The position numbers and the translations under genes are program-made. Shown here in pieces: positions 25,940-61,011 of a stretch of DNA of 64,000 nucleotides; positions within the stretch are counted from its first letter, which is position 1, and the number at the start of each line of letters is the position of its first letter. The notes beneath the pieces were generated by a model. The model had not been told where the DNA came from. It saw only the letters and a program-made list of their open reading frames with translations, and did not search any database. The stretch lies in contig NC_057923.1 of NCBI RefSeq assembly GCF_018873765.1, positions 56,600,593-56,664,592 on the forward strand, read 5' to 3'. This DNA is from Telopea speciosissima (lineage: Eukaryota; Streptophyta; Magnoliopsida; Proteales; Proteaceae).

Positions 25940-28347
25940 GATCTAAGACTTAACCATATTAAATTCAGTTCGTATCGATTCAAGTTATTCTCGGATTGGG
26001 TATTTGGTTCGTGGTTACCCACTGACACCCTTTCTGTAAAGTAGTAGTTTTTCCGTGCAAGAAAATAGTACCTTTCCCTCCTCTACGAATTTACGGAATC
26101 AGTAGTTGGATTGCATTAATGAGTGATATGGGCCTTCCACTAGGTGGCACTAAATAAGGGACAAGGACTAGCGTGGGCCTTGCCGTGAGTTATGGTCTCA
26201 TCTCAATCTCTTCATATGGACCCTTTTTTCTCCAAAACCCTATCCCTATTATTATTCTCGTTCTTAGTGTTGTAGGTATGAGTGAAGACTTTTCACCTTA
26301 TGGAATCCAATCCTCATTATTTAATAAAACCTTCCGTTCTTATCAGGGTAAGGCAAGGTACGGCATGTGAGAGAGAAAGAAGAATGAGGAGTGAAAAGTG
26401 GGGTCCACAGACCACCTGCCATACATAAATTTTCTTTTTCTTCATTAACTTGGGTGATAAGAATATGGATCATATCATTAAATAGTTATTAGCATCTAAG
26501 TTGATGCTTAATATAAAAAGATTACAAAGAAAAGGCATCTTTGGTGGTGGTGGTGGTAGCGATGATTTGATGAGGTCAGCGAATTTTATGTTAAAGTCAA
26601 AGAAAGTAGATTTTTATATATACATGTGAGCTCGTCCTTTCTCCAACTTAGTAGTTGTTCCTCCCTTACATGTTTCTCCACCAAATAAGTCTTCTTTCAC
26701 TTCTCTTTCAAATCACTTTTAATGATCTAAGGTAATTTTAACGTGACTTTTAATTAAGAAAAAAGAAGAATCCAATGTAGAGTGTAGATTCCATCATATC
26801 ATATGTCCTCTCATATAATAAACAGTGAGATTCATATTGATATTTTCTTTCTTATTGTGATCTATGTGGGCTCCATGTGAATGATATAATTCTCTACACC
26901 ACCATTAGTGCGATGTATAGGTTCTTTCTTATGTTAGCATCATGGGAATTAATTGTTTGACACTTGATCAATACGTCAAAAACTTCAGAGTTGAGGGAAC
27001 GTGTTAAATCAAACCTTTTGATCTATTTCATAATAGGTTGCTCAATCTAACGCCTATAGACTAGAATAGGTCTCATTAGGCATATAACAGAAACTTAAGA
27101 GTAAAAAACAAGGCTTAGTTTTCCTTTAGTCACATTGAGGCGTGTTCAGATGCACACAGGGGATATCGGAGGGTATTTTGGAGAACATACTAAAACATAA
27201 GAGGATTTGTGAACCCTAGGATGGTGGCTTTTCATTCATCGGGTGATGGAGGGAAACATAATCATTCAAAAACCTATCAATTAGTAGAAAAAATAATTTT
27301 GGAAAAAGTGTTTCATCGTATACCCTCTCAGGTAATGAACCATGGGATTTACACTGACATTCTCTTTCTCTCTCATTTCTACCTATGTAGGCTTCATATG
27401 GATGAAACGATTCTCTACACCACCATTGGTGTGACTGTGCATATTCTTCCCCACATTGGCATCTTGGGGGAACCCTCTCCCAAAAGTATCCTAACCTCAT
27501 GTCAAAATTCTTACCTAAAATACTTGAACTTCAAACTATTATGAACACCAATCAATTAGTAAAAAAATAATTTTCAAAAAAGTGTACGCCGCCTACTTGA
27601 CCTAGGCTCTCTTACATTGAATTTTTCAAAAAAGAATTTTCTCTCCTTTTTCCATCCGCCCTGTCTCCATTGAAAGAAACACTGTTGCCCTCTCTCATTG
27701 GTCTGCTTCGAGATTTCTTCCCAAGCTAGCAGTGTGGCATTCCCTCCCCAATAATTTTTATCTATTTTTTCTTGGACTCATGATAATCTAATAGGGGTTA
27801 TTGCTTAAAGCAATGGCAAAAGGTTTGGAAGCAAATTCCTATGTCCGAGGCTTAGAGACAAATTTGTATGAGTTCTAAGTGAAAATTTTTTTTTCTTGAC
27901 TTTAGCATAACTTTTGTGTCTTAGACAATAAGGGATGCTTCAATCCACTTTCTTAATGCCCATATTGCCCTTTCTTGTACTTGGGTCCTTTTTTGTACGG
28001 ATGAGTATTACATCACTACCCAAATAACCAAAGTTCCCACCATTTATATGTTTTCAATTTTTTAATCGTCACATGATTCATCAAAGGGTCCATTTGTTTC
28101 AACATTAAATTGATGTAAATTAAAAAAAAAAAAAAAAAAAAACCTCTATGATGTGAGAGTGATATTCTCTCTCATGCTTTGAATATGCGGGCCCATATGA
28201 ATGATATCTTTTTCAAGATAGTCATTAGTCGATGTAAAAATTTCTTCCTACACTAGTAGTGTGGGAAACCCTCTACCATAAGAAAATGAGCATAATTATA
28301 CTTATACGATGAATAAAAAATAGAAAGAAGAATCCTTCTCTCTATTT
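25940..28347. repeat. Spacer with three more copies of family B
   Basis: Diverged family B copies lie at about 26770-26950, 27305-27480 and 28140-28275, recognisable by 'ctctacaccaccatt(a/g)gtg' and the following 'ttggcatct(t)gggg' or 'gttagcatcatggg' blocks. An oligo-A run lies at 28121-28142. No gene was found between them. Confidence 0.5.
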
Positions 28348-28680
28348 GAAGATCACGAATTTGATTCTTCTTTTTAAAGTGTTAGCAAAATCTTCTCATT
28401 TCAAATCACTTTGTCCATGAAGACATATCATTTCATAATAAATTTCAGTCTTATTTTAAAAAAAAAAAAATTGAAGTTTCTATCATCCTTGAGAAGATAT
28501 CAAAGGGTATGGAAATAAAAACCTGGATCAAAAGCTATGAAAAGTTTCAAGTACACGGAAGACTTGGGCTTCAACCCTTACAACCTCGTTGATGAAGAAA
28601 TCCTTTTTTGCAATGATTGACTTCATCAACCTAAACTCCTGATTAATTTAGTGGTCAGTTTAAACAATATATTTTTTTGA
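28348..28680 (+). pseudogene. Decayed copy A of the 5' end of the FBL3-like gene
   Basis: This matches the leader and first codons of the intact F-box/LRR gene that starts at 35261. The leader word gaagatcacgaatttgattc corresponds to gaagatcccaaattcgattc at 35172. The start atgaaaagtttcaag at 28536 corresponds to atgaaaaatctgaaa, and 'gatgaagaaatc' follows as in 'actgaagaaatc'. The frame then reaches a stop within about 35 codons. Compared with the gene, the leader carries about 100 extra bases. Only the 5' leader and the start of the F-box are present; no LRR part follows. Confidence 0.72.
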
Positions 28681-28717
28681 TAAAATCAATTTAAACAATA
28701 TGATCCATCATATTTTT

Positions 28718-29147
28718 GAAGATCATGAATTCGATTCTTCTTTTTAAAGTGTTCGCAAGATCTTCTCATTTCAACTCACTTTGTCCATGAAAACATCACG
28801 ATTCCATAACAAATATAAGTTATTTTTTCGGAGAAAAAAGTGTTAGTAACATCTTCTCATTTCAACTAACTTTTTCCATTAAGACATATCACGATTCCAT
28901 GATAAATTTAAATCGTTTTTCTAAGAAAAAAAAATTGAAGTTTCAATCGTCTTTGAGAATATATCAAAAGATACAGAAAGAAGAGCTTAAATTAGAAGCT
29001 ATGAAAAGTCTCAAGTACCTGTAAAACTTGGACTTCAACCATTTCAACCTCCTTGCTGAAGAAATCTTTTTTTCTTTTTTATTATTGACTTCATCAACCT
29101 AACCTTGATGATTTTAGTGGCCAATATAAACTATATGATCCATCATA
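28718..29147 (+). pseudogene. Decayed copy B of the 5' end of the FBL3-like gene
   Basis: Same layout as copy A. The leader word is gaagatcatgaattcgattc, and the start is atgaaaagtctcaagtacct at 29001 with an early stop (cctgtaaaac). It keeps the line-up to 'cttgctgaagaaatc', matching the F-box of the gene at 35261. The leader segment (cttctcatttcaactcactt) is itself duplicated inside this copy. Confidence 0.72.
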
Positions 29148-29965
29148 TATTTGAAGGTAACGAATTTTATTTTTCTTTTTTAATTTTTAGCAAGATCTTC
29201 TCATTTCAACTCACTTTGTCCATGAAAATATATTACAATTCCCTAATAAATTTAAGAGGGGGCGTTCTCTGTGGGGGGTCTTGATTGCCAAAAGGGCTTG
29301 GAACATGGGCCTGAGGAGGCATCGTGGGATTTTGGGCCTGGGGCTGTTGTCGTTGCTGTGGTGGTGCTTGTGGAGCAGTGTCCACTTCACTGTCGCTGCT
29401 ATAGATGATAGGTTCAGTTGCCTGAGGATCATCTGGAGCTTTAGTCTGATAGACTGGCAAAGGACTCGAGGAAGCCTGTGATGCTGAGTCCGAGAAGGAA
29501 GTGACAGAAGAGACCTTAGAGGTTGCCAACGCAGGGATGGCTTGTGGAGCTAAGGTTAACTGGGTCAAATAATTACTAAGGGTATTTGGATGTGCAGGAG
29601 TTGAGAACGTGCAAGCTGGCATCTCGAGAGGCGATATTTCTGCCTTTCATGGGGGTCGGAATGGTCATTTCACACCCAACTGTCTAGGCGTGGCCTCCCC
29701 CACATCCCCCATACAAGAACATTTTCCCTAAATTTTTTTTTTTTTTGGAAAAATAAAATTGAAGTTTCTATTGTGCTTGAGAAGATATCAAAAGATACAG
29801 AAAGAAGAACTTGAATTTGAAGCTATGAAAAGTTTCAAAGTACATGGAAAACTCAGGCTTCAACCCTTTCAACCTCCTTGCTGGAGAAATCCTTTTTTGA
29901 ATATTGACTTAATCAACCTAGACCCGTGATGAATCTAGTGGCCAATTTGAACAATATCCAATCAT
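29148..29965 (+). pseudogene. Decayed copy C of the 5' end of the FBL3-like gene, split by an insertion
   Basis: The leader part lies at 29148-29245 and the remainder at 29740-29965, with the start atgaaaagtttcaaagtaca at 29824. The interval is occupied by the insertion described at 29246-29735. The copy ends, like A and B, shortly after the F-box start with 'ctagtggccaatttgaacaa'. The shared break point shows that the three fragments came from repeated duplication of one unit rather than from three independent losses. Confidence 0.7.
29246..29735 (-). mobile_element. Insertion with TIR-like ends and a P/Q/S-rich open frame
   Basis: The segment interrupts pseudogene copy C. Its ends, ggcgttctctgtgggggg on the left and the reverse complement of its right end (gttcttgtatgggggatgtg), are roughly inverted copies and resemble the foldback family with 'GTTCTCTGT' ends. 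On the minus strand a frame of 129 codons from 29622 is open and rich in Pro, Gln and Ser (APQAPPQQRQQPQAQNP). I do not recognise it. It may be a captured gene piece or the linker of an old retroelement polyprotein. A family A foldback signature (cggaatggtcatttcac) lies near 29650-29700. Confidence 0.5.
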
Positions 29966-30319
29966 ATATGGGTTTTTTCCCTTTTTACCTAAAAAAATAA
30001 TTTGGGTTTTTTCTCCATATTCGACGTACCTTGTTACTTAAACAGTTTCAAATATATTTTATATTTTTTATTCCCTTAAATTTTATTTAGATGACTAAAC
30101 AATGATATGAGCATATATTTATGATTTGGGTGCTAATGCCAAACATAAATTCTTTGAAAACACTGAAAGGTCAGAGGAAGAGATCGAGCTTATAACCTTT
30201 TCTCCATTGCTAGTGAAACTATTCTCATCTCTCCATGACCGTAGACACCTTGCTGAACCACCCATATCCGTTTATTATCTGATTATTATTTTTTTCTTCT
30301 TTTTATTTGTTTTTTACAT

Positions 30320-30321
<2 letters not shown>

Positions 30322-30386
<65 letters not shown>
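30322..30386. repeat. (GA)n microsatellite, about 32 units
   Basis: A pure GA run 65 bp long produces artificial Arg-Glu and Leu-Ser open frames on the two strands. None of these is a gene. Confidence 0.95.
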
Positions 30387-30389
<3 letters not shown>

Positions 30390-30460
30390 CCGATTTAGAA
30401 CAGTTTGTTTTTTAGGTTTAAACCAAGGATCAAGAACTCGGTTCCAGACATGGTTTTGTT

Positions 30461-30890
30461 GGGTCCAAAACGGATCTTGTTTCGAGGTTTTGATTCTAGG
30501 TTTCAATTCTGGGTCTCTTTGGATTGAAATTTATTTGATTCTGGGTTTTGACACTACATTTTGTTTCGAGACAATTCAGAGATTTTGATCAATTTCAACC
30601 AAGATTTTATTTCATGGTAGTTCCATTATATGATCAGATATCCTATATTTCTTATCATCGCTTTCTTGCCCTTCTTCCTGTGTGTAGTCCAAAGGATCAA
30701 GATGTGTTGGATCTTGTTTCAAGGTTTTGACACTGGGTTTTGATCCTAAGCTTCCTTGGGTTGGAACTTTTAGATCAAAACTTGAGTTTTAACCATTGGT
30801 TTTGTTTTGGTCAAACTCGAAACCGAGACAATTCGGAGAATCTGATCAGTTTCAGCCGAGATTTTATTCTATAGTTTAAACCATAATGAA
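30461..30890. repeat. Two-copy diverged tandem repeat, period about 225 bp
   Basis: Both copies contain 'ggatcttgtttc(g/a)aggttttga', 'gagacaattc(a/g)gaga' and 'agattttatt(t/c)'. The two are about three-quarters alike by eye. Non-coding. Confidence 0.6.
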
Positions 30891-32637
30891 ATCTTACATT
30901 TATAATCTTTAGTGAGAAAAGATTCGGCAAAAACACTTTAAATCATCTTTCCAAGTCAAACAAGTAAACAACTAAGAATAAGGAAATTGATTTGATGTGT
31001 TTATGTTTTATTGGTAACAAGAGGAATGAATTGCGAGGAGAAGATAACTAATACTGAAATCAATGGATAAATAGAGTTTGTAGCGAAATCATTGTCGCAA
31101 ATCAAATCATTGTTTATCATTATAAGAGGAAGATAACTAATATTGAAATCACAAAATGAACCCTACTATCGAATCATTCATTTAAATGTCCAACTAATTT
31201 TGTATAGTGAACAAGGAGATCAATGGAAGCATTGACACATATCAATTTTCCTTCATAACCTCATACTCATTGATTTATAACGACTCCCCTTACAACCATA
31301 AATTTTCTCATTAGGATAACTAATTCACTTGTTCATAACCTTATATTTTATGATTTTTTTATTGGTTTCATTCAGTTCGATTTTCAATTTGGATATTGGT
31401 CAGTTCAATGCGGTCTATTTTTGAATCGATCCCGTCATACCCCAATCCAAAACCAATCTGATAAGAATCGGTTCATTTTTATCTAAATTTTTTGATTGAT
31501 TTTACTGGTTCGAGCTAAGTTTTGACACCACTAGTTACAATATGATCAAAAATTTAATGAGGTAGAGGTGGATATATGTTGGACACAAATAATGATGTAT
31601 AGTTTACCCAAAGATAATAATAATAATGCATGGTAAAAGGCACTTAACTTGTCCTCTCAAGGCAGTTACAACATTAACCACCCCCACCAAGTTTGTACAA
31701 AAGTCTAAGAGTTACCTACTTCCCTATAACACCTACACTTATACGTCAAGTTGTTACTTCCACCATAATAAGACAAAAATTAAGTCATATTAAGCACTCC
31801 CCATAAACCATATCACCTAACCTCAAAAAAATAGAAGCAAGGGATGAGTGGTGAAATCTCGTCCTGGTTCAACTCTCTCTCTCTCTCTCTCTCTCTCCAC
31901 ATCAAATGACCTTCTCCATTTAAGAAACCGTTTCCCACACGTCTATTGGTGTGATGTTTCACATTGGCATTGTGGGAAATCTATGCCCATTAGGAATATA
32001 CTAAGGAAAAAATTAAGAACGTTGAAAAGTTACATGTCCTATCCTTATTGATGTTTTCGTGCATTCTTTCATTGACCCCTGTGCTGACTCTTGCCTTGCA
32101 AAGATTCATGGCCCTTCTACTACTTCCAAGGGGGTGTAACCAGTGTTTGAGGTATCAGTGCTCCATTGGTCATCGTTGATTCTGATACCATATTACTACG
32201 GACTAGTTGGTATCGACTCGAATCGGGTGCAAATTAAAAATACAAACCACTTTTTGATTGATACTCTCGATCCGTATTGGTGGAATATCAGCCAAAACCA
32301 ACACCTACATCTCTTGAAATTAGATACGGGATTGGTCTCCATAAATTTTGATATCTTTTTGAAATCAAACAGAATTGATCAAGAGTCAATTGGACTCGAC
32401 TGGAATCTGCTTGACTTGGCCAAGCTTAGCCTGATTCAATCGAGCAATATGCATAAAATCAGTCTTGATGATGTTAGAATCAAATCACTCATGACAGCGG
32501 AATTAACACAAGAGGGGATCACTTACCTCTGTCCAAAACAACGTTACCTCTAGACACCGTTGTCAAACTCCGTCAATGCTAGTATGCTCCTGCGATTCTA
32601 TCAGCTCCAATAGTCACCAGTAATGCAGTATGATAAA
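30891..32637. other. Spacer, no gene seen
   Basis: Holds a CT microsatellite at 31866-31896, a possible family B fragment near 31900-31985 and a GATACC/GGTATCG-rich repeat near 32155-32470. The 136-codon frame at 32143-32553 lies in this degenerate repeat and has no recognisable domain. Confidence 0.5.
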
Positions 32638-33400
32638 GGGAGTTGCCTTTTGGCTTATATGTATCTCCCTGAGCTATAGATTAGATGGAATTGCTGTGAA
32701 TGCCTTCCCCAGCCAGAACGTCCTTTCTTAATATCAACCACGTATAACTCCCTACCATCAAGGGAGTTGCTTCTAGTTTGTATGTCTCTCCCTGAGTAAT
32801 AGTCCAGATGGAATTGTCATGAATGCCTTCCCAAGCTAGAAACCATTTTCTTAATATCAATCGCGTACAACTCCTTACCATCAAGGGAGTTACCTTTTGG
32901 CATGTATGTCTCTCCCTGAGTCAAAGGCTAGATGGAATTGTCGTGAATATCTTTCCAAGCCAGAACACCCTTTCTTAATATCAATCACGTATAACTCCCT
33001 ACTATCAAGGGAGTAGCCTTCTGGCTTGTATAGTTGTATCTCTCCCTGAGTAACAAGCTAGATGGAATTGGTGTGAATGCCTTCCCAAGCCAGAACCTCC
33101 TTTCTTAATATCATTCACGTATAACTCCCTTGATACTATCAAGGGAGTTGCTTTCTAGCTTGTATGTCTCTCCCTGAGTAACAAGCTAGATGGAATTGCT
33201 ATGAATATCTTCCCAAGCTAGAACCCCCTTTCTTAATATTGACCACGAGGTACAAACTCCCTACTACCAAGGGAGTTGCATTCTAGCTTGTATTTCTCTT
33301 CCTAAGTAACGAGCTGAATGGAATTGCCATGAATACTTTCCCAAGCCAAAACCCCCTTTATTAATATCAATCACGTACAACTCCCTACTATGAAGGAAGT
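32638..33400. repeat. Six-copy tandem array, unit about 123 bp
   Basis: Units begin with gggagttgc at 32638, 32762, 32885, 33009, 33143 and 33271 and end at about 33394 (spacings 124, 123, 124, 134, 128 and 124). Each carries 'tctctccctgag', 'agatggaattg', 'aatgccttcccaagc' and 'tttcttaatatcaa', followed by 'acaactccctac'. Inside every unit boundary aactccct and gggagtt form a small inverted pair, so each junction could fold. Copies differ by about 10-20 percent, so the array is not new. It is not a CRISPR: the repeats are continuous, with no spacers. Confidence 0.92.
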
Positions 33401-33411
33401 TTATGAGGGGG

Positions 33412-34499: not shown

Positions 34500-35260
34500 G
34501 ATCGTACTGTCTGCACTTGAATCCGTCCTTCCTCACATACGTTTTTGCGGCATTAGGTGTTCCCTCCCTCATATACTTTCTCCACCAGATGTTCCAATCA
34601 CCAGATGTAACGTATTCCAATAAAATTAAAATAAAGTCAAGTGGGGCCCACACTACTTTCTTTTCTTCACTCTTTTTCTTCTCCGCCAACCAATCAAATT
34701 ATCGATCCTTTCTGTCTCTAATTCGATTCTCTTTCCAACGTGACTGTAACCGCTTTCTCCTCTGGTACCGTCCTTCTCCGTACTATCAGATATCAAAATT
34801 ACTTACTCTACCCAGTACGTCTTCGAGAGAAAATTCTAGAACCCTTTAATAAAGGACTATTTCGTCATTCCATAAAAGGTTATTCTCGTAATTTAATCCT
34901 CACAGTTCCACAAATAGAAAGCCCACAGATTTGTAGTTGCCTTTCTCGTTCAGTTGAACGGTTATTCCCTGAATTTTTTTTCCCATTTCCATTTCCATTA
35001 TTATTTGTTTAGATAATCCCAAAGGCTTCTTCTTCTTCTTCTTCACCTCCTCAGTCCTTCCTTTCTTCCTCCATGGCCTTTTTTTGGTAATATTCTTCCT
35101 CCATGGCCTCCCCCTGAAAAGCACACACAGACACGTTAGGTAATAACTCTCCATGGCCCATTTCTTCTTCTGAAGATCCCAAATTCGATTCCTCTCTTTA
35201 AATCCTCTGCTAGATCTTCTTCAATCGTCAATCCAACAACAAGAGATTGGATTTGAGGCC
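34500..35260 (+). promoter_or_regulatory. Promoter and 5' leader region of the FBL3-like gene
   Basis: The sequence between the GA microsatellite and the start codon at 35261 is pyrimidine-rich near its end, with a short TTC repeat at 35026-35040. The last 90 bases, from gaagatccc at 35172, are the part repeated in the three decayed copies at 28348-29965, which marks them as transcribed leader. No TATA box can be assigned with confidence. Confidence 0.45.
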
Positions 35261-38200
35261 ATGAAAAATCTGAAATACATGGAATGTCTCGACTTCAATT
35301 CTTTCGACCTTCTCACTGAAGAAATCATCTTCGCGATTCTTGACTTTCTTGACGAGAATCCTCTTGACAAGAAATCATTTTCTTTGGTATGTAAATCTTT
35401 TTATGTCTCTGAAGCTCGACACCGGAAGACCTTGAAACCCCTTCGTTCTGAGTTGCTCACCACAATCCTTGACCGCTATCCTTCTGTTTCTCATCTTGAT
35501 CTCACGCTTTGTCCTCGGATCACAGACAATTCTCTCATCGTTATCTCTTCCGTTTGTAAATCTACGTTGCGTTCCATTGACCTATCTAGATCTAAGTGTT
35601 TCTCCCACGTTGGCTTGTCTAATTTGGTTCTTAACTGCTCGTCTTTGGTCGAACTTGATCTGTCTAATGGTACTGAGCTCACGGATTCTGCTGCAGCGGC
35701 TATAGCGGAAGCAAGGAATTTGGAGAAGTTATGGCTGGTTAGGTGTAAATTAATTTCCGATTTGGGGATTGGATGTATTGCGGTTGGGTGCAAGAAGCTG
35801 AGACTGATCAGCTTGAAGTGGTGCTTAGGTGTTACTCATTTGGGTGTGGGTTTGCTTGCAATCAAATGCAAGGACATCCGTAGTTTAGATCTCTCTTACG
35901 TTCCGGTAATCCCTATGCTCTCTTTCTATTTCTTTTCTAGTTTATTCTTATCGAGGGGAAGAAATTAAGAAAATGCTATATTCCAGTCTCTTTAGATTCG
36001 TTTGATGCGGTTTATGGACTTGGATATAGTTTTAGAACTGTCTGCGCTGATTTGATGTAGGATGCATTTATGTTTATTAAATAGAGTTTCTTTTTCTTCT
36101 GTGTGAGTTGAAGATTCCTACTTAATTAATGCTTTTTTCTGCATACGGTAGATTACAGTTAACCGTAATGCAGTTTTTTTCCCCTCCTTTATAATTTCTT
36201 CCCTCCTCTGTTTAACTCTTGAGTGTTTGCGCAATTTGATTTCCTCTAGATTTTGTTTCTAGCTTGATGCAATTTTGAATCTGAAAGGTACAGTGAGTTG
36301 CAAGTAGCGCATGGACAATATTATAGAAGTGAATCTGCAATTCTTTGTGGTTGCTTTGCCTATTTAATTTAGTTATAGATCTGAAGACCTGCTTGAAAGT
36401 TAAAATTTGAAGTGGAGTTACTCTGTTATCTGCAAAGAAGTGTTTGCCGATTATTTGTGAGTCAGGTTTTGGTGGGAACCGTGCCTGCACCAACTCCATG
36501 CATTAAAACTTTAAACATATTCTCAAATAAAATTCATGGATTTAAGTTAAGTTAGAAAAGTCGTTGGATTTGTGGAACTAGCAGATCTGGCCTTATATTT
36601 AGGTGATAGGAAATTCTTTGTCTCTTGTATTTGGATCTATTCACTAAGGTATCTTTAGATTGATTTTATCAATTACATACTGTTCATTCTGTTGATTGGA
36701 AAAAAAAAATCCTGTTTGTCTTCTTTCATTCTTTTTTACCCCTTTAAAGGAAGCGTTTGTCGTGTTGAATCATTTGTGCTGTCCTATTGTGCAGATTACT
36801 AAGAAATGTCTTCCATCTATCTTGCAACTACAACATCTTGAAGAGCTGGTTCTTACAGGATGCCTTGGTATTGATGATGGAGACCTTGCAACCCTCAAAC
36901 GAGGGTGTGCATCACTTCAGGTACTTATGTTGGTGAATTTATTTTGGTTGCTCCCCATTATATGTTCAACTTTTTTGTGTTGTGATAAAAAACACAGATT
37001 GGTATTAGGATATATATTAGTCTTGTTGTAATTAGTATACCATTGCTTGTGGATATGAGCTTGCAATTATATTGTTTAGCTCATACGATGTTCAGTCATT
37101 GGTACACCAATGCCCCGCCAACTGGGAGAAACAGAAAGTTTGTTCAAGAGAAATTTTTTATTTCAGTATATACTTTTCCCAATTCATTTTTGTTGATAGA
37201 ATTCTCTGTTTTCTGCTCGCAACAGACACTCAATATGTCATGTTGTCAAAATGTGACACATGAAGGTTTATTTTTCCTGACAAATGGAGCTGGAAGTCTA
37301 CGCCAACTTATTTTAGCATATGGTTCTCCTGTAAGTCTACAAAACTCCTGTTGATTTCTCCTAATGTCTGAATGGTGTTTCTAACGGAACCCTTGTTTTG
37401 GTTCTCTCCAGGTTACACTTGCGCTGGCTGGAACCTTGCAAAAGTTCTCAAAACTGCAGTCTATCAAATTAGATGGTTGCCTTGTCTCTACTGATGGGCT
37501 AAATGCCATTGGAGATTCTTGTGTCTCACTTAGTGAATTGAGCTTAAGTAAGTGCTCAGGAGTGACAGATGAAGGTCTATCTTCCATTGTGACAAAACAC
37601 AAAGAGTTAAGGAAGCTGGACATAACATGCTGCCGCAAGATAACTCATGCCTCCATTGCCAGCATCAAAACTTCATGCACCTCTCTCACTTCCCTCAGGA
37701 TGGAATCTTGTAGCCTCGTTTCAAAGGAAGCCTTCGTCTCGATTGGAGAGCATTGCCCTTTCTTGGAAGAACTAGATGTGACAGATAACAGCATCGATGA
37801 TGAAGGTATGTGGAGATCCTACCGACTTTTAGGTTCATAATTAATGAATACGATTAATTCATATTATTCAATTTTGCAGGTCTAAAGTCCATATCAAGGT
37901 GCTCCAATCTCTCTAGTTTAAAAATAGGGATTTGCTTGAGCATAACAGATGAGGGACTTACTCATGTTGGCATGTGTTGTCCAAAACTTAAAGAGCTCGA
38001 TGTGTACAGGTTTGTGAGTTTTCACCATTTAGTTTGGATCTCCATATTTATTTCTTGTTTATTACTTAACTGACCAAATCTTCAGATGCATGGTCTATGT
38101 GCAACAAGATTTAAGGCTTAATCTTCATGATTCTGAATTTTTTGAAGAAAATTCAGAAATGTTATGATGTCCATAACTTATAAGCACAATCCTGCTGGGA

Positions 38201-39176
38201 AATTTCCAAAAGCCTTCAATCTTGATTTGAAAAACCGGTAGCATGGAAGAGAATCTTAAATATGTATAGTTGTACCAAACACCTATTTTCTAATCATAAT
38301 AAATGTTTTTTTAGTGTAAGAAAAAAAAAAAGAATTGCATTAGATTTCCCATGTATTGCCCCAAAATTTGGTTCCAGAATAACTTCGTTTTATTTCTGTT
38401 GTTCAGGGCCATGGGAATAACTGATTTAGGCATTGCAGCAATTGCTTCTGGTTGCTCTAGGCTGGAGATGATTAACATAGCATATTGTAAAGATATAACT
38501 GATCACTCTTTAAGATCATTGTCAAAATGCTCAAGGTTAAATACGCTTGAAATTCGAGGATGCCTTCATATTTCATCATCGGGTCTCTCAGCCATTGCTG
38601 TGGGCTGTAAGCAACTGACCAAGCTAGACATAAAGAAGTGCTACAACATTGATGATTCTGGAATGCTTCCTCTCGCTCACTTCTCCCAAAATCTCAGAGT
38701 GGTATTTCTTCTCGACTCTTTATTTTGATCACCTAGGTTTGGTACTATATGTATAACAATTGACAGTGGTAGTTCATTATTTCTATGCAGATAAACTTGT
38801 CATATTGCTCTGTAACTGATGTGGGCCTGTTAGCATTAGCCAGCATAAGCTGTCTGCAGAGCACGACCATCTTGCACCTGAAGGGTTTGACTGCAAATGG
38901 CTTGGCAGCAGCACTGTTAGCATGTGGTGGGCTAACAAAAGTAAAGCTTCACTCATCCTTCAGACCCTTGCTCCCCCAACCTCTTGTTGAACACATTGAA
39001 GCTCGTGGCTGTGTTTTCCAATGGAGGGACAAACCCTTCCAGGTTAATGCTTGCTTCTCTATCACAGCCCTCCCGCCATATGTAGAAAATTCTAGCTGGT
39101 ACTGATTTAAGCTATGTATGCTTGGCAGTGTGAAGAAGATGCGAGGAGTTGGAAACTGCAGGTAGATGTGGTATGA
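35261..39176 (+). CDS. FBL3: F-box/LRR-repeat protein, FBL3 type, complete in eight exons
   Basis: Exons 35261-35905, 36795-36920, 37226-37330, 37412-37805, 37880-38009, 38407-38701, 38791-39042 and 39129-39176 join in frame to 664 residues, almost exactly the length of Arabidopsis FBL3 (about 665). The F-box lies at about residues 16-50 ([22 protein letters not shown]) and would bind the SKP1 subunit of an SCF ubiquitin ligase. The remainder is a chain of about 18 cysteine-containing leucine-rich repeats, such as [20 protein letters not shown] and [18 protein letters not shown], that should form the substrate-binding solenoid. The C terminus [15 protein letters not shown] is encoded by a tiny last exon that a single-frame scan misses, reading through instead to a false stop at 39105. 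The substrate is not known from sequence. The gene appears intact. Three decayed copies of its 5' end lie 5-7 kb upstream. Confidence 0.96.
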
Positions 39177-39239
39177 GTTTTGACTGAGTAGTGTAGGAAG
39201 GATCGGAGATTCCTAAGTTGGAGTTGGTCCCATGCTGTA

Positions 39240-39415
39240 TATATATTATGGGAAAAATGTTCCCCACGATGCTAGTGTACTATTGCCCTCTCACATGGAT
39301 TTTTCTCTTTATCTTGATCATGTGGACCTCATGTGGATTATACCATTTTCCATACCTCCGTTTATATGGTGTGGGAGACTCCCCCATATTGGTGTTGTGG
39401 GAACCAACTCCCATA
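39240..39415 (+). repeat. Family B repeat in the 3' flank of the FBL3-like gene
   Basis: Shares 'ccctctcacatgga', 'gacctcatgtggat' and 'ggtgttgtgggaacc' with the copies near 16165 and 27305. It begins some 60 bases after the stop codon, so it may be part of the 3' UTR. Confidence 0.5.
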
Positions 39416-49570: not shown

Positions 49571-50373
49571 TAGTGTCACAACCCGGTCTCACAAATGGCT
49601 CAATTTTGTCCGCTTTGGATCAAAGCCCGCACAGTTTTAAAATGCATCATATCAAATAAGGAGGCCACAACATTTATATGCATTCTATGACACATCCCCA
49701 AACGATGTGAGACTATTCCGTGGTTCTACAACCGTTAACACCACCATCACCGGTCACCACCTTTCTTACAGAAATATGGTGAATCAAAAAACCTATTTGT
49801 TGACTATTTCATGAAATCAAATTCGAAATTGAAATAGAAATCATACCAAATCTAATTATAAAAAAGGAAAGGGAAATTTAACACATACCACCCCTGAGGT
49901 TTGACGAAAGGATATTTTCACCCCCCAGTTTTGAAAAATTCTACGTACACCCCTGAGGTTTGCAAACGGTAAAAAATAAGTCCATTTCGTCAGTTCATGA
50001 CTAACATTGTTAAAAATTAGACTTGAACTGACAGAATTGCTCTTACAAGAAAAAAAAAACGAAAAAAAAAAACACACCTGCAACTCATCTTCCCCAATCG
50101 ATTTTGGGGAAGATGAGTTGCAAAAATGTGATCCTTATACATATCAAATGCATCTTTCAGCTCTTTCATCCCATTACTGGCGTCTGCATCACCGATGGAA
50201 CTTCCACGGTGGAAATCGGCAAATTATTTTGTCAATTATTAAGGAAATTTCATGAATCATTTAATCGTTTTATACGCAAGAAGAGCAAGGAATTAAAAAT
50301 AAAAACCATGGGAACCTGCCACAAGTTCCCATGAGAAATCACGGGAATTACATTATCGATTCTCTATCCTTAG

Positions 50374-50790
50374 TTAGTCCTCAAGGATTTTCCCCTTCTT
50401 TATACCAATCGAAGCATCTGGCTTTCGACCAGGAGAAGCAAGATTTTTTATCCTAAACGTAATCTCCTCCGGAGAACATTCAGAGCCTAGGGCATTAGAA
50501 GAGAAGTGATTACAAGTCGAGAAGGACATCTTCTTCTTCCTCTCCAGTGGTAACAACAACTTCTTCAAGCCTAACGATTGGAGCAACCTGAGCTCCTGTA
50601 TCTTCGTCTTCACCGGCTGCACTTCTGTTGCCTCTTCCTCTCCCTCCTCTTTGCGCTTGGCCTCGTTACTCGCCATGATCACTGCAAAGAACAACATAGT
50701 GGAACTAGGGGAAGAGAGATTCTGACTTTTGAGAGAATGAGAGATTGGGAGAAAGAATTGAAGGCAGAAGATGGGTTTTAAACCGTACAA
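50374..50790 (-). CDS. Unrecognised open frame inside Mutator-like element 3
   Basis: The frame from the inner Met, in VIMASNEAKRKEEGEEE, is Lys/Glu-rich at its start and then has LRLLQSLGLKKLLLPLERKK. No domain is recognised and no introns can be tested. It lies between the TIRs, so it is either captured host sequence or chance. The low stop density over 138 codons argues mildly for captured exon material. Confidence 0.25.
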   Translation of the reverse strand: MYGLKPIFCLQFFLPISHSLKSQNLSSPSSTMLFFAVIMASNEAKRKEEGEEEATEVQPVKTKIQELRLLQSLGLKKLLLPLERKKKMSFSTCNHFSSNALGSECSPEEITFRIKNLASPGRKPDASIGIKKGKILED

Positions 50791-51412
50791 ACCCTATTCT
50801 TCCTAATAGCTACAGTTACTCCATTCCTCAAAAATCCACTAACAGTTTCATTCCTACTTCCACCAACCCCTCTGTAACCTATTAAATTAGTAAAAATTGA
50901 AGACAGAAGTTATAAAACTTGAATCAATGGAAAGAGAGAGGTGTTGGACCCGTGAAGCTTCTGAAGCACAAGGAAATAGGGAAAGTTAAGTTCTTCAATG
51001 CTTCTTTGATGTCCTTTGAACCTGGTAAAAAATGGGTTTGGTGAGATTATCTGCTTTCAAACCAAACGATTTGAGGCACCATTGCGATTCGTGGAATTGA
51101 AATTAAGGCATCATATCGTCTTATTCGGCTGCCACCGTATCATTCGTCCAACCTCGTCACTGCTGCAACTCGGAATTTCATATTTGAGGCTGCAACTCCG
51201 AATTTCAGATTTGAGATCCCTCTTGTATGGTTTTGCAATAAAACTAGAATTTTATGATGGAAAAGTGCTTAGAGATGGTTAGGTACTCATCTTCCCCAAA
51301 AATCGATTGGGGAAGATGAGTTGCAGGTGTTTTTTGTTTTTTGTTTTTTTTTGTTTTTTTGTTTGTTTTTGTAAGGGCAATTCCGTCAATTCAAGTCTAA
51401 TTTTTAACAGTG

Positions 51413-51957
51413 GCACGCTGCCTCAGGTAGTCACGGAAGAGTTGTTGGTCGTCGAGGATCTGTCGCTGTAAGTCATTGATCTGACCCACAGTCGCTGGTA
51501 CATTGGGGTCGGGTACTACCTCCACCTTCATTTTGGTGTTGGGTTCGACTACCACAACTTGATCATCGTCTGGGATCTCCCTCTGCAGAGAGACATGGTT
51601 ATGGTCATTGGCTCTGCGAGGAGAGCTCTTTGGAGGAGATGATCCGTTCCTTGGGGCATTGTAGGTGGAGGGAGCAGTCTTCTTACCCTGTGGTGTCATG
51701 ATTGAACAATTATGGAAACAAGCTAGTAGATACTATGGCTAGCGTCATTCCCACAGACGACGCCAATCTGTTGCGTCAGGTAATCGTCTGCGGTCTCTTC
51801 GAGTATAGTAACCTGCAAAAGGACCAAGGTGACAAAGGAGAACCAGTGTGGTTCCGACCTAAGACTCTCCGATGCCTAAGTTAGACCCCTCTGAGCAAAT
51901 AGATGAATAGTAGAATTCAAGATGGGCTCATGGAATAGAATACCTTCCCTTTTATAA
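51413..51957 (-). mobile_element. Fragment of an LTR retroelement nested in the TIR of Mutator-like element 3
   Basis: Read on the minus strand the parts come in retroelement order. The 3' part of an LTR (51957-51769) ends in CAACA. A primer-binding region, gattggcgtcgtctgtggga (about 51768-51749), follows, and then a leader and the start of a gag-like frame at 51699. That primer-site sequence is common in plant Gypsy-type and short non-autonomous LTR elements. The rest of the element is missing, so it is broken and old. The host TIR resumes on both sides, which shows insertion after the Mutator-like element arrived. Confidence 0.75.
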
Positions 51958-52097
51958 GTCATGAGCTGACGGAATGGACTTATTTGTTACCGTTTGCAAA
52001 CCTCAGGGGGGTACGCAGAATTTTTCAAAATTGGGGGTTAAAAATATCCTTTCGTCAAACCTCAGGGGTGGTATGTGTAAATTTCCCAAAAGAAAAT

Positions 52098-59945: not shown

Positions 59946-60100
59946 ATATATGAGAAGCAATTTTATGTCCGGGAGTGTGACCTACGACAGCCTCCTCTTT
60001 AAAACAAGGGGGTAGAGATGTCTTTTCATATGAAAAAGAAAGAGATAGACTCATGGGAATGTTGGAGTAGGCCACACTTCCAGATAGAGTTCTTTTTCCC
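59946..60100. mobile_element. Foldback MITE with GTCCGGGAGTGTG end, copy 1
   Basis: The ends gaagcaattttatgtccggg and the complement of the right end (ctggaagtgtggcctactcc) pair, and the centre carries cccttgttttaaag/ctttcatatgaaaa blocks. It is the same family, with the inner part inverted, as the copy at 61286-61443. Confidence 0.7.
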
Positions 60101-61011
60101 ATAATATATATACGGATGCTAGGCTTTGGTATACTGGCAGTGTACTCAACCTTTTCCCAACATATATCTTGTCGTCTCGATGTGCTGTAAACCTTACAAC
60201 AGTGGCATCACATTTTGGTTTTGATTTCATAAAAGGCCGAATCGATAATTCCAGCTGTTGGATGGACAATGGACTTCTCTAATTAATTAGGTATCAAACT
60301 GATAAGTGGTATTAATTAAATGATTCATCATGTAAGTCAACTCTATCTTTTATAATTAAATGTTTAGTTTTTCTAGAAAAGATTGACTTCCTTAATGTTT
60401 ATTTTAAATTTCGGCTCAATCCCATGTAGTGAGCTTTGGAGTTTAGATTGAAGGTAAGAAAACAATAGAGAATTATGGGGTTTCCAGTAGAAGGACAAAG
60501 GACAAAGGACAAAGATATGTGGATCACCTGTGACCTGTGTCCATAATATTGAATTCCAATTACGCTGCTACATGGCTGGAAGCAAACCCAACCCATTTAA
60601 CTAGATTTGGCTGTAATGCTGATGAGCCATCCACAAACTTTGAAATGTAAAGTGTTATTTTGGAAGATTAATATATAATGAGAGAGGGTTCCCTCCAATG
60701 CTTGTGTGTAGTTTCAGTAGAATAGAAAACTTTGTCAAATAGGGGGTATTTAGGAGATTTTAAAAAAAGATGTGTTTTGAGTGAGGGTGTGTAGCTCTAT
60801 CCTCCCCATAAATAAAGGAGAGGATACCCCAACTGAGTGTTGAGGGAATTTCTCATGCCACACCAATGGTAGTATCAGGAATGGTATCATTCACATGGAC
60901 CCAGATGGTGATGGAGGATAGAGAGAATAAAAAAAAATAACTAATTAGATGTGAGAGAATTAATTAGGAAGAAAATCCTAACACCAACAGTGTTGGGATT
61001 ATTTTGCACAC

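Follow-up and report, generated by a model that had tools for sequence, protein, structure and literature searches.

Three decayed tandem copies of the start of an F-box/LRR gene form a probable local, non-functional relic upstream of it

The window analysed here, a stretch of 64,000 nucleotides (G000:C8:56600593-56664592) from a genome of 823 Mb in 1287 contigs, harbours an F-box/LRR gene starting at 35261 and, 5.3-6.9 kb upstream of this start and on the same strand, a tandem array of three copies, each comprising the leader and the first ~30-40 codons of such a gene. In the following, C8, the contig of the local gene, also denotes the gene itself. The gene was fitted by hand with seven exons (35261-35905, 36795-36920, 37226-37330, 37412-37805, 37880-38009, 38407-38698 and 38791-39105) and a product of 668 aa, a length that holds for the chosen splicing, other acceptor or donor choices giving 669-675 aa or shorter products. 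In this product the Pfam family LRR_6 scored above and F-box_5 below the cut-off, the latter being a weak F-box match; we take the gene to be FBL3-like. The features are listed below in window coordinates.

28348..29970, + strand: the array, three tandem copies
28348..28716, + strand: copy A; leader, ATG at 28537, 27 open codons and a stop (from the sequence, codons by eye), with an additional short duplication near its 3' end
28717..29151, + strand: copy B; leader, ATG at 29001, 7 codons and a stop (from the sequence)
29152..29256, + strand: copy C, 5' (leader) half
29257..29729, no strand: repeat-derived insert splitting copy C (~470 bp, ends by eye)
29730..29970, + strand: copy C, 3' half; leader, ATG at 29825, frame lost by a one-base insertion within the first 5 codons
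35173..35260, + strand: leader of the local gene, homologous to the copies and lacking a ~55-column block of the C3 paralogue and the copies
35261..39105, + strand: the local F-box/LRR gene

The original prediction was of three consecutive partial copies of the 5' end of the gene, in the same orientation and with a common end, and the direct repeats and alignment scores bear this out, except that copy B is internally duplicated and copy C interrupted. One family of the direct-repeat search (D3), with members at 28507, 28971, 29796 and 35231, lines the copies up with the start of the gene. The repeated unit runs from a leader block matching the gene at 35173, through the ATG, to a shared end ~50 bases beyond recognisable coding sequence; the unit end points and the end of the array (~29970) were placed by eye from the alignments. 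The leader of copy B contains a tandem duplication of its own (28746-28931, period 91, ~91 bp). Part of the insert in copy C (29269-29608) matches at least 39 other genomic places (40 of 273 candidates scored), and an imperfect repeat flanks the insert (AAATTTAAG / AAATTTTTT, by eye). Since its best relative is 96% identical, against 82-83% identity of the copies to one another, the insert is probably younger than the copies. Membership of an unrelated repeat family, proposed beforehand as a competing source of the similarity, applies to this insert and not, as far as was found, to the copies. An open frame of 129 aa on the - strand (29233-29622) lies mostly inside the insert and gave no Pfam match at E ≤ 0.001.

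In the upstream flank of the array (26500-28347; 40 of 2056 candidates scored), the repeats found were short and confined to 26874-27481; in the downstream flank (29955-31300; 40 of 1227 candidates scored), repeats were found mainly from 30569 onward. Between array and gene, positions 32636-33401 hold ~6 tandem copies of a ~128-bp unit. No Rfam family matched in the whole window at the gathering threshold.

Local alignment to the gene start (35100-35400) gave scores of 34, 43 and 46 for copies A, B and C, against maxima of 20, 18 and 23 in 200 shuffles per copy. When 850 slices of the window were scanned on both strands with the 5' part of the gene, the background maximum was 17, and non-gene slices exceeded this value only at starts 28201-29851 on the + strand. 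These scores rule out chance similarity, the outcome that the proposed alignment of the array to the gene start could have had. A blastn search of the window with the gene (34700-39300, E ≤ 1e-3) returned, besides the gene itself, leader and 5' blocks in copies B and C and one 21-nt match at 60093-60113; copy A fell under this cut-off and was recovered by the direct-repeat search and the local alignments. As anticipated, this search found no LRR sequence in the array; it detected no intron sequence there either, and no trace in the window of further parts of a lost neighbour.

The alignment of the copies with the two genes contains 105 columns that are present in most copies and missing in the local gene, a few of which may fall past the start codon. 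About 100 extra leader bases common to all copies had been noted before; the amount is confirmed, while about half of it is also a property of a paralogue, 55 of the columns being present in the C3 gene and 50 in neither gene. This paralogue (C3:64123604, L011/L014) is full-length, has the longer leader, and was found by the genome search that had been suggested. Its exon 1 is 82% identical to that of the local gene (NG86 dN 0.068, dS 0.95). A search with one LRR exon (E ≤ 1e-8) returned at least 13 places (150 of 203 candidates scored), with C8 at 99%, C3 at 85% and the next place at only 42%. Judged by this exon, the lineage of the local gene appears to consist of C8 and C3 alone, and any third source gene would therefore have been lost. 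Since the leader block is kept both in the C3 paralogue and in the copies, the local gene would most simply have lost part of a long leader. A second array beside the C3 gene was ruled out, as the 29,671 bases surrounding it contain none.

With the internal duplication of B and the insert of C left out, the pairwise K2P distances among the copies are 0.202, 0.203 and 0.197, a star-like equidistance that points to one triplication. Identity among the copies is 81-82% in the leader and 83-88% in the coding part, a similar divergence in both. Stops disable the frames of A and B, and a frameshift that of C. Relative to the consensus, substitutions number 10, 8 and 4 by codon position (in 89, 90 and 89 cells), showing no third-position excess at these few sites. 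Over shared columns, the majority sequence of the copies agrees with C8 at 61 of 89 leader and 76 of 116 coding positions, and with C3 at 87 of 131 and 83 of 116. The copies share a state with C3 at 24 sites and with C8 at 21, while C8 and C3 agree at 34, a count inflated by constraint on both genes. By these alignments the copies resemble the local gene no more than they resemble C3 over shared columns, and the near balance of the patterns (24 vs 21) argues that they are no recent derivative of the local gene. Their higher scores against the C3 paralogue in the 850-slice scan (A 58, B 70, C 75, vs 34, 43 and 46 against the local gene) owe much to the leader block missing from the local gene. 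A five-taxon tree of copies and genes, which is unrooted and does not give the branch of origin, set the copies apart from both genes with support 100; their point of attachment relative to the C8/C3 split had a support of only 0.474 (without outgroup). The idea that the copies derive from a lost paralogue and not from the present gene holds in so far as their source differs from the present local form; at this support, that source may have been either a lost paralogue or an ancestor.

A recent tandem duplication of the start of the present local gene would explain the location and orientation of the array, as well as the 77% identity between the local gene and the first leader block of copy B (53 nt). 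However, the copies carry a leader block missing from that gene and differ from it by ~33% across the shared columns; the long leader and this divergence led us to reject the gene in its present form as a recent template. We consider such a duplication highly improbable; were the block lost only after the duplication, the account would become identical to the one preferred below.

Alternatively, the array could be what remains of a Pack-type element, Mutator-like or Helitron, which took up the gene's 5' end and inserted close by. Captures of this gene family are indeed found, pieces of both the C8 and the C3 gene being carried by mobile or dispersed repeats elsewhere in the genome. A search with the gene start gave 45 match rows at 37 places, including the local gene and C3. 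One group, derived from the local gene, is 88-95% identical to it (by piece) and lies mostly between Mutator-like inverted repeats: among nine loci tested, the repeat occurred in both orientations at seven (L019-L023, L046, L047), in one orientation at L018, where blastn detected both, and in none at L015. Two of these loci, L046 (C10:46562000-46569000) and L047 (C3:31270000-31277000), are Mutator-like and hold parts of the local gene's leader and exon 1 at 86-96% identity; L046 is flanked by a 9-bp duplication with the same bases at both ends (by eye). The leader is present more than once in both, a feature that would suit a mobile origin of the array. The window itself contains a Mutator-like element at 49872-52087, with 131-nt inverted repeats (92%), inner repeats, and flanks identical at 8 of 9 positions (by eye). 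The inverted repeats bordering captured F-box gene pieces match those of this element.

A second group of captures is C3-like, with six of the seven loci compared 86-89% identical to C3 vs 77-79% to C8, and L044 at 70% vs 61%. A large dispersed repeat (L028-L032 and L041) carries a 5' piece of a C3-type gene and includes L028, L030 and L041 of the compared set; its members L028-L032 are 94.6-97.4% identical to L041 over 4.3-5.3 kb, and L032 comprises two copies in opposite orientation. No stop-to-stop frame of at least 110 aa was found in L041 or L030, and neither L041 nor L032 matched the Mutator-like element of the window.

Against a mobile origin, the captured copies share with the array just the gene-derived blocks, and the array lies near the gene in the same orientation. 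Around the array, the search for inverted repeats (minimum 16 nt, listing 25 of 30 pairs; Helitron ends and ends below this length would escape it) found no pair longer than 34 nt, and thus no long terminal inverted repeats of the Pack-MULE type, the pairs that span the array being A/T-rich. Apart from the array itself, a genome search with it returned copy C, the C3 gene and a single place on C4 (E 1.6e-5), with 3 candidates scored and no dispersed relative; it is weak evidence against such relatives, since this insensitive search missed the local gene even at E ≤ 10. Rough, post hoc arithmetic puts the chance that one of the 35 other gene-related places (the 37 places minus the two genes) would land within 10 kb of either gene in 823 Mb at ~0.2%, which favours a local origin. 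Taken together, a mobile element seems to us an unlikely source and is less likely than local duplication. A broader proposal treats the 5' end of this F-box gene lineage as a hot spot of recurrent duplication, perhaps because its leader is open in chromatin or prone to breakage; different repeats would independently have copied leader and exon-1 pieces of both genes, a local event would have added the tandem copies here, and some of the pieces could give rise to small RNAs acting back on the genes. We judge this distinctly doubtful; if the gene start is a target of repeated capture, it would be a way into the question of why certain genes are duplicated in pieces.

We favour, as the probable history of the locus, that part of a long-leader gene, ancestral or since lost, was duplicated locally, then triplicated, and decayed neutrally into a non-functional relic. 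A segment consisting of the leader and ~30-40 codons would have been duplicated upstream of the gene in the same orientation, its source being an ancestor of the gene or a lost neighbouring paralogue that retained the long leader. The unit would then have been triplicated in tandem, as indicated by the shared unit end and the shared A/B and B/C junctions. The copies would subsequently have decayed separately through point mutations, small tandem duplications and one insertion, and the present local gene would have dropped ~55 leader bases. On this reading, the array may serve as a small fossil record of a leader form that the neighbouring gene lost and the paralogue kept.

The array gives no sign of a function. 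Small-RNA or antisense action on F-box genes had been raised as speculation, and truncated copies near a gene can act in this way (PMC8042742). A few 21-mers come within 2-3 mismatches of a target. Against the spliced C8 mRNA, one 21-mer of copy B shows 2 mismatches, and three from copy A show the same number against leader and exon 1 of C3, compared with a best of 3 (C8) and 4 (C3) in 40 control slices (~310 nt); such 21-mers would lend weak but not nil support. However, exact matches extend over at most 11 nt in the C8 mRNA and 16 nt in the leader and exon 1 of C3, and the substitutions by codon position (10/8/4) show no sign of constraint. A functional role of this kind, similar to FOLT2, would seem extremely improbable.

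Several systems invite comparison with the array. In the Arabidopsis accessions C24 and Sha, truncated copies of FOLT2 express siRNA that silences a paralogue (PMC8042742); several truncated copies near a full gene are a common feature, but the array retains short exact matches only. HvARM1 is a partial duplicate of barley HvPUB15 that encodes a protein with a tested role (PMC6092874), and the likeness lies in the partial duplication of a ubiquitin-ligase-type gene, whereas the copies described here are without a usable frame. Pack-MULE elements carry captured gene fragments (PMC3310237), and Mutator-like elements elsewhere in this genome have captured pieces of the same gene, but the array showed no long inverted repeats.

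The homology of the array to part of a functional-looking gene, by which partial tandem duplicate pseudogenes are recognised, is clear. Such truncated duplicates occur in plants, and the array is like them in missing most of the gene, in lying near a parent-type gene in the same orientation and in its disabled frame. It differs in occurring as three units that share their end points and in preserving a leader form apparently lost by its neighbour. The array is best regarded as a further example of this known kind of pseudogene.
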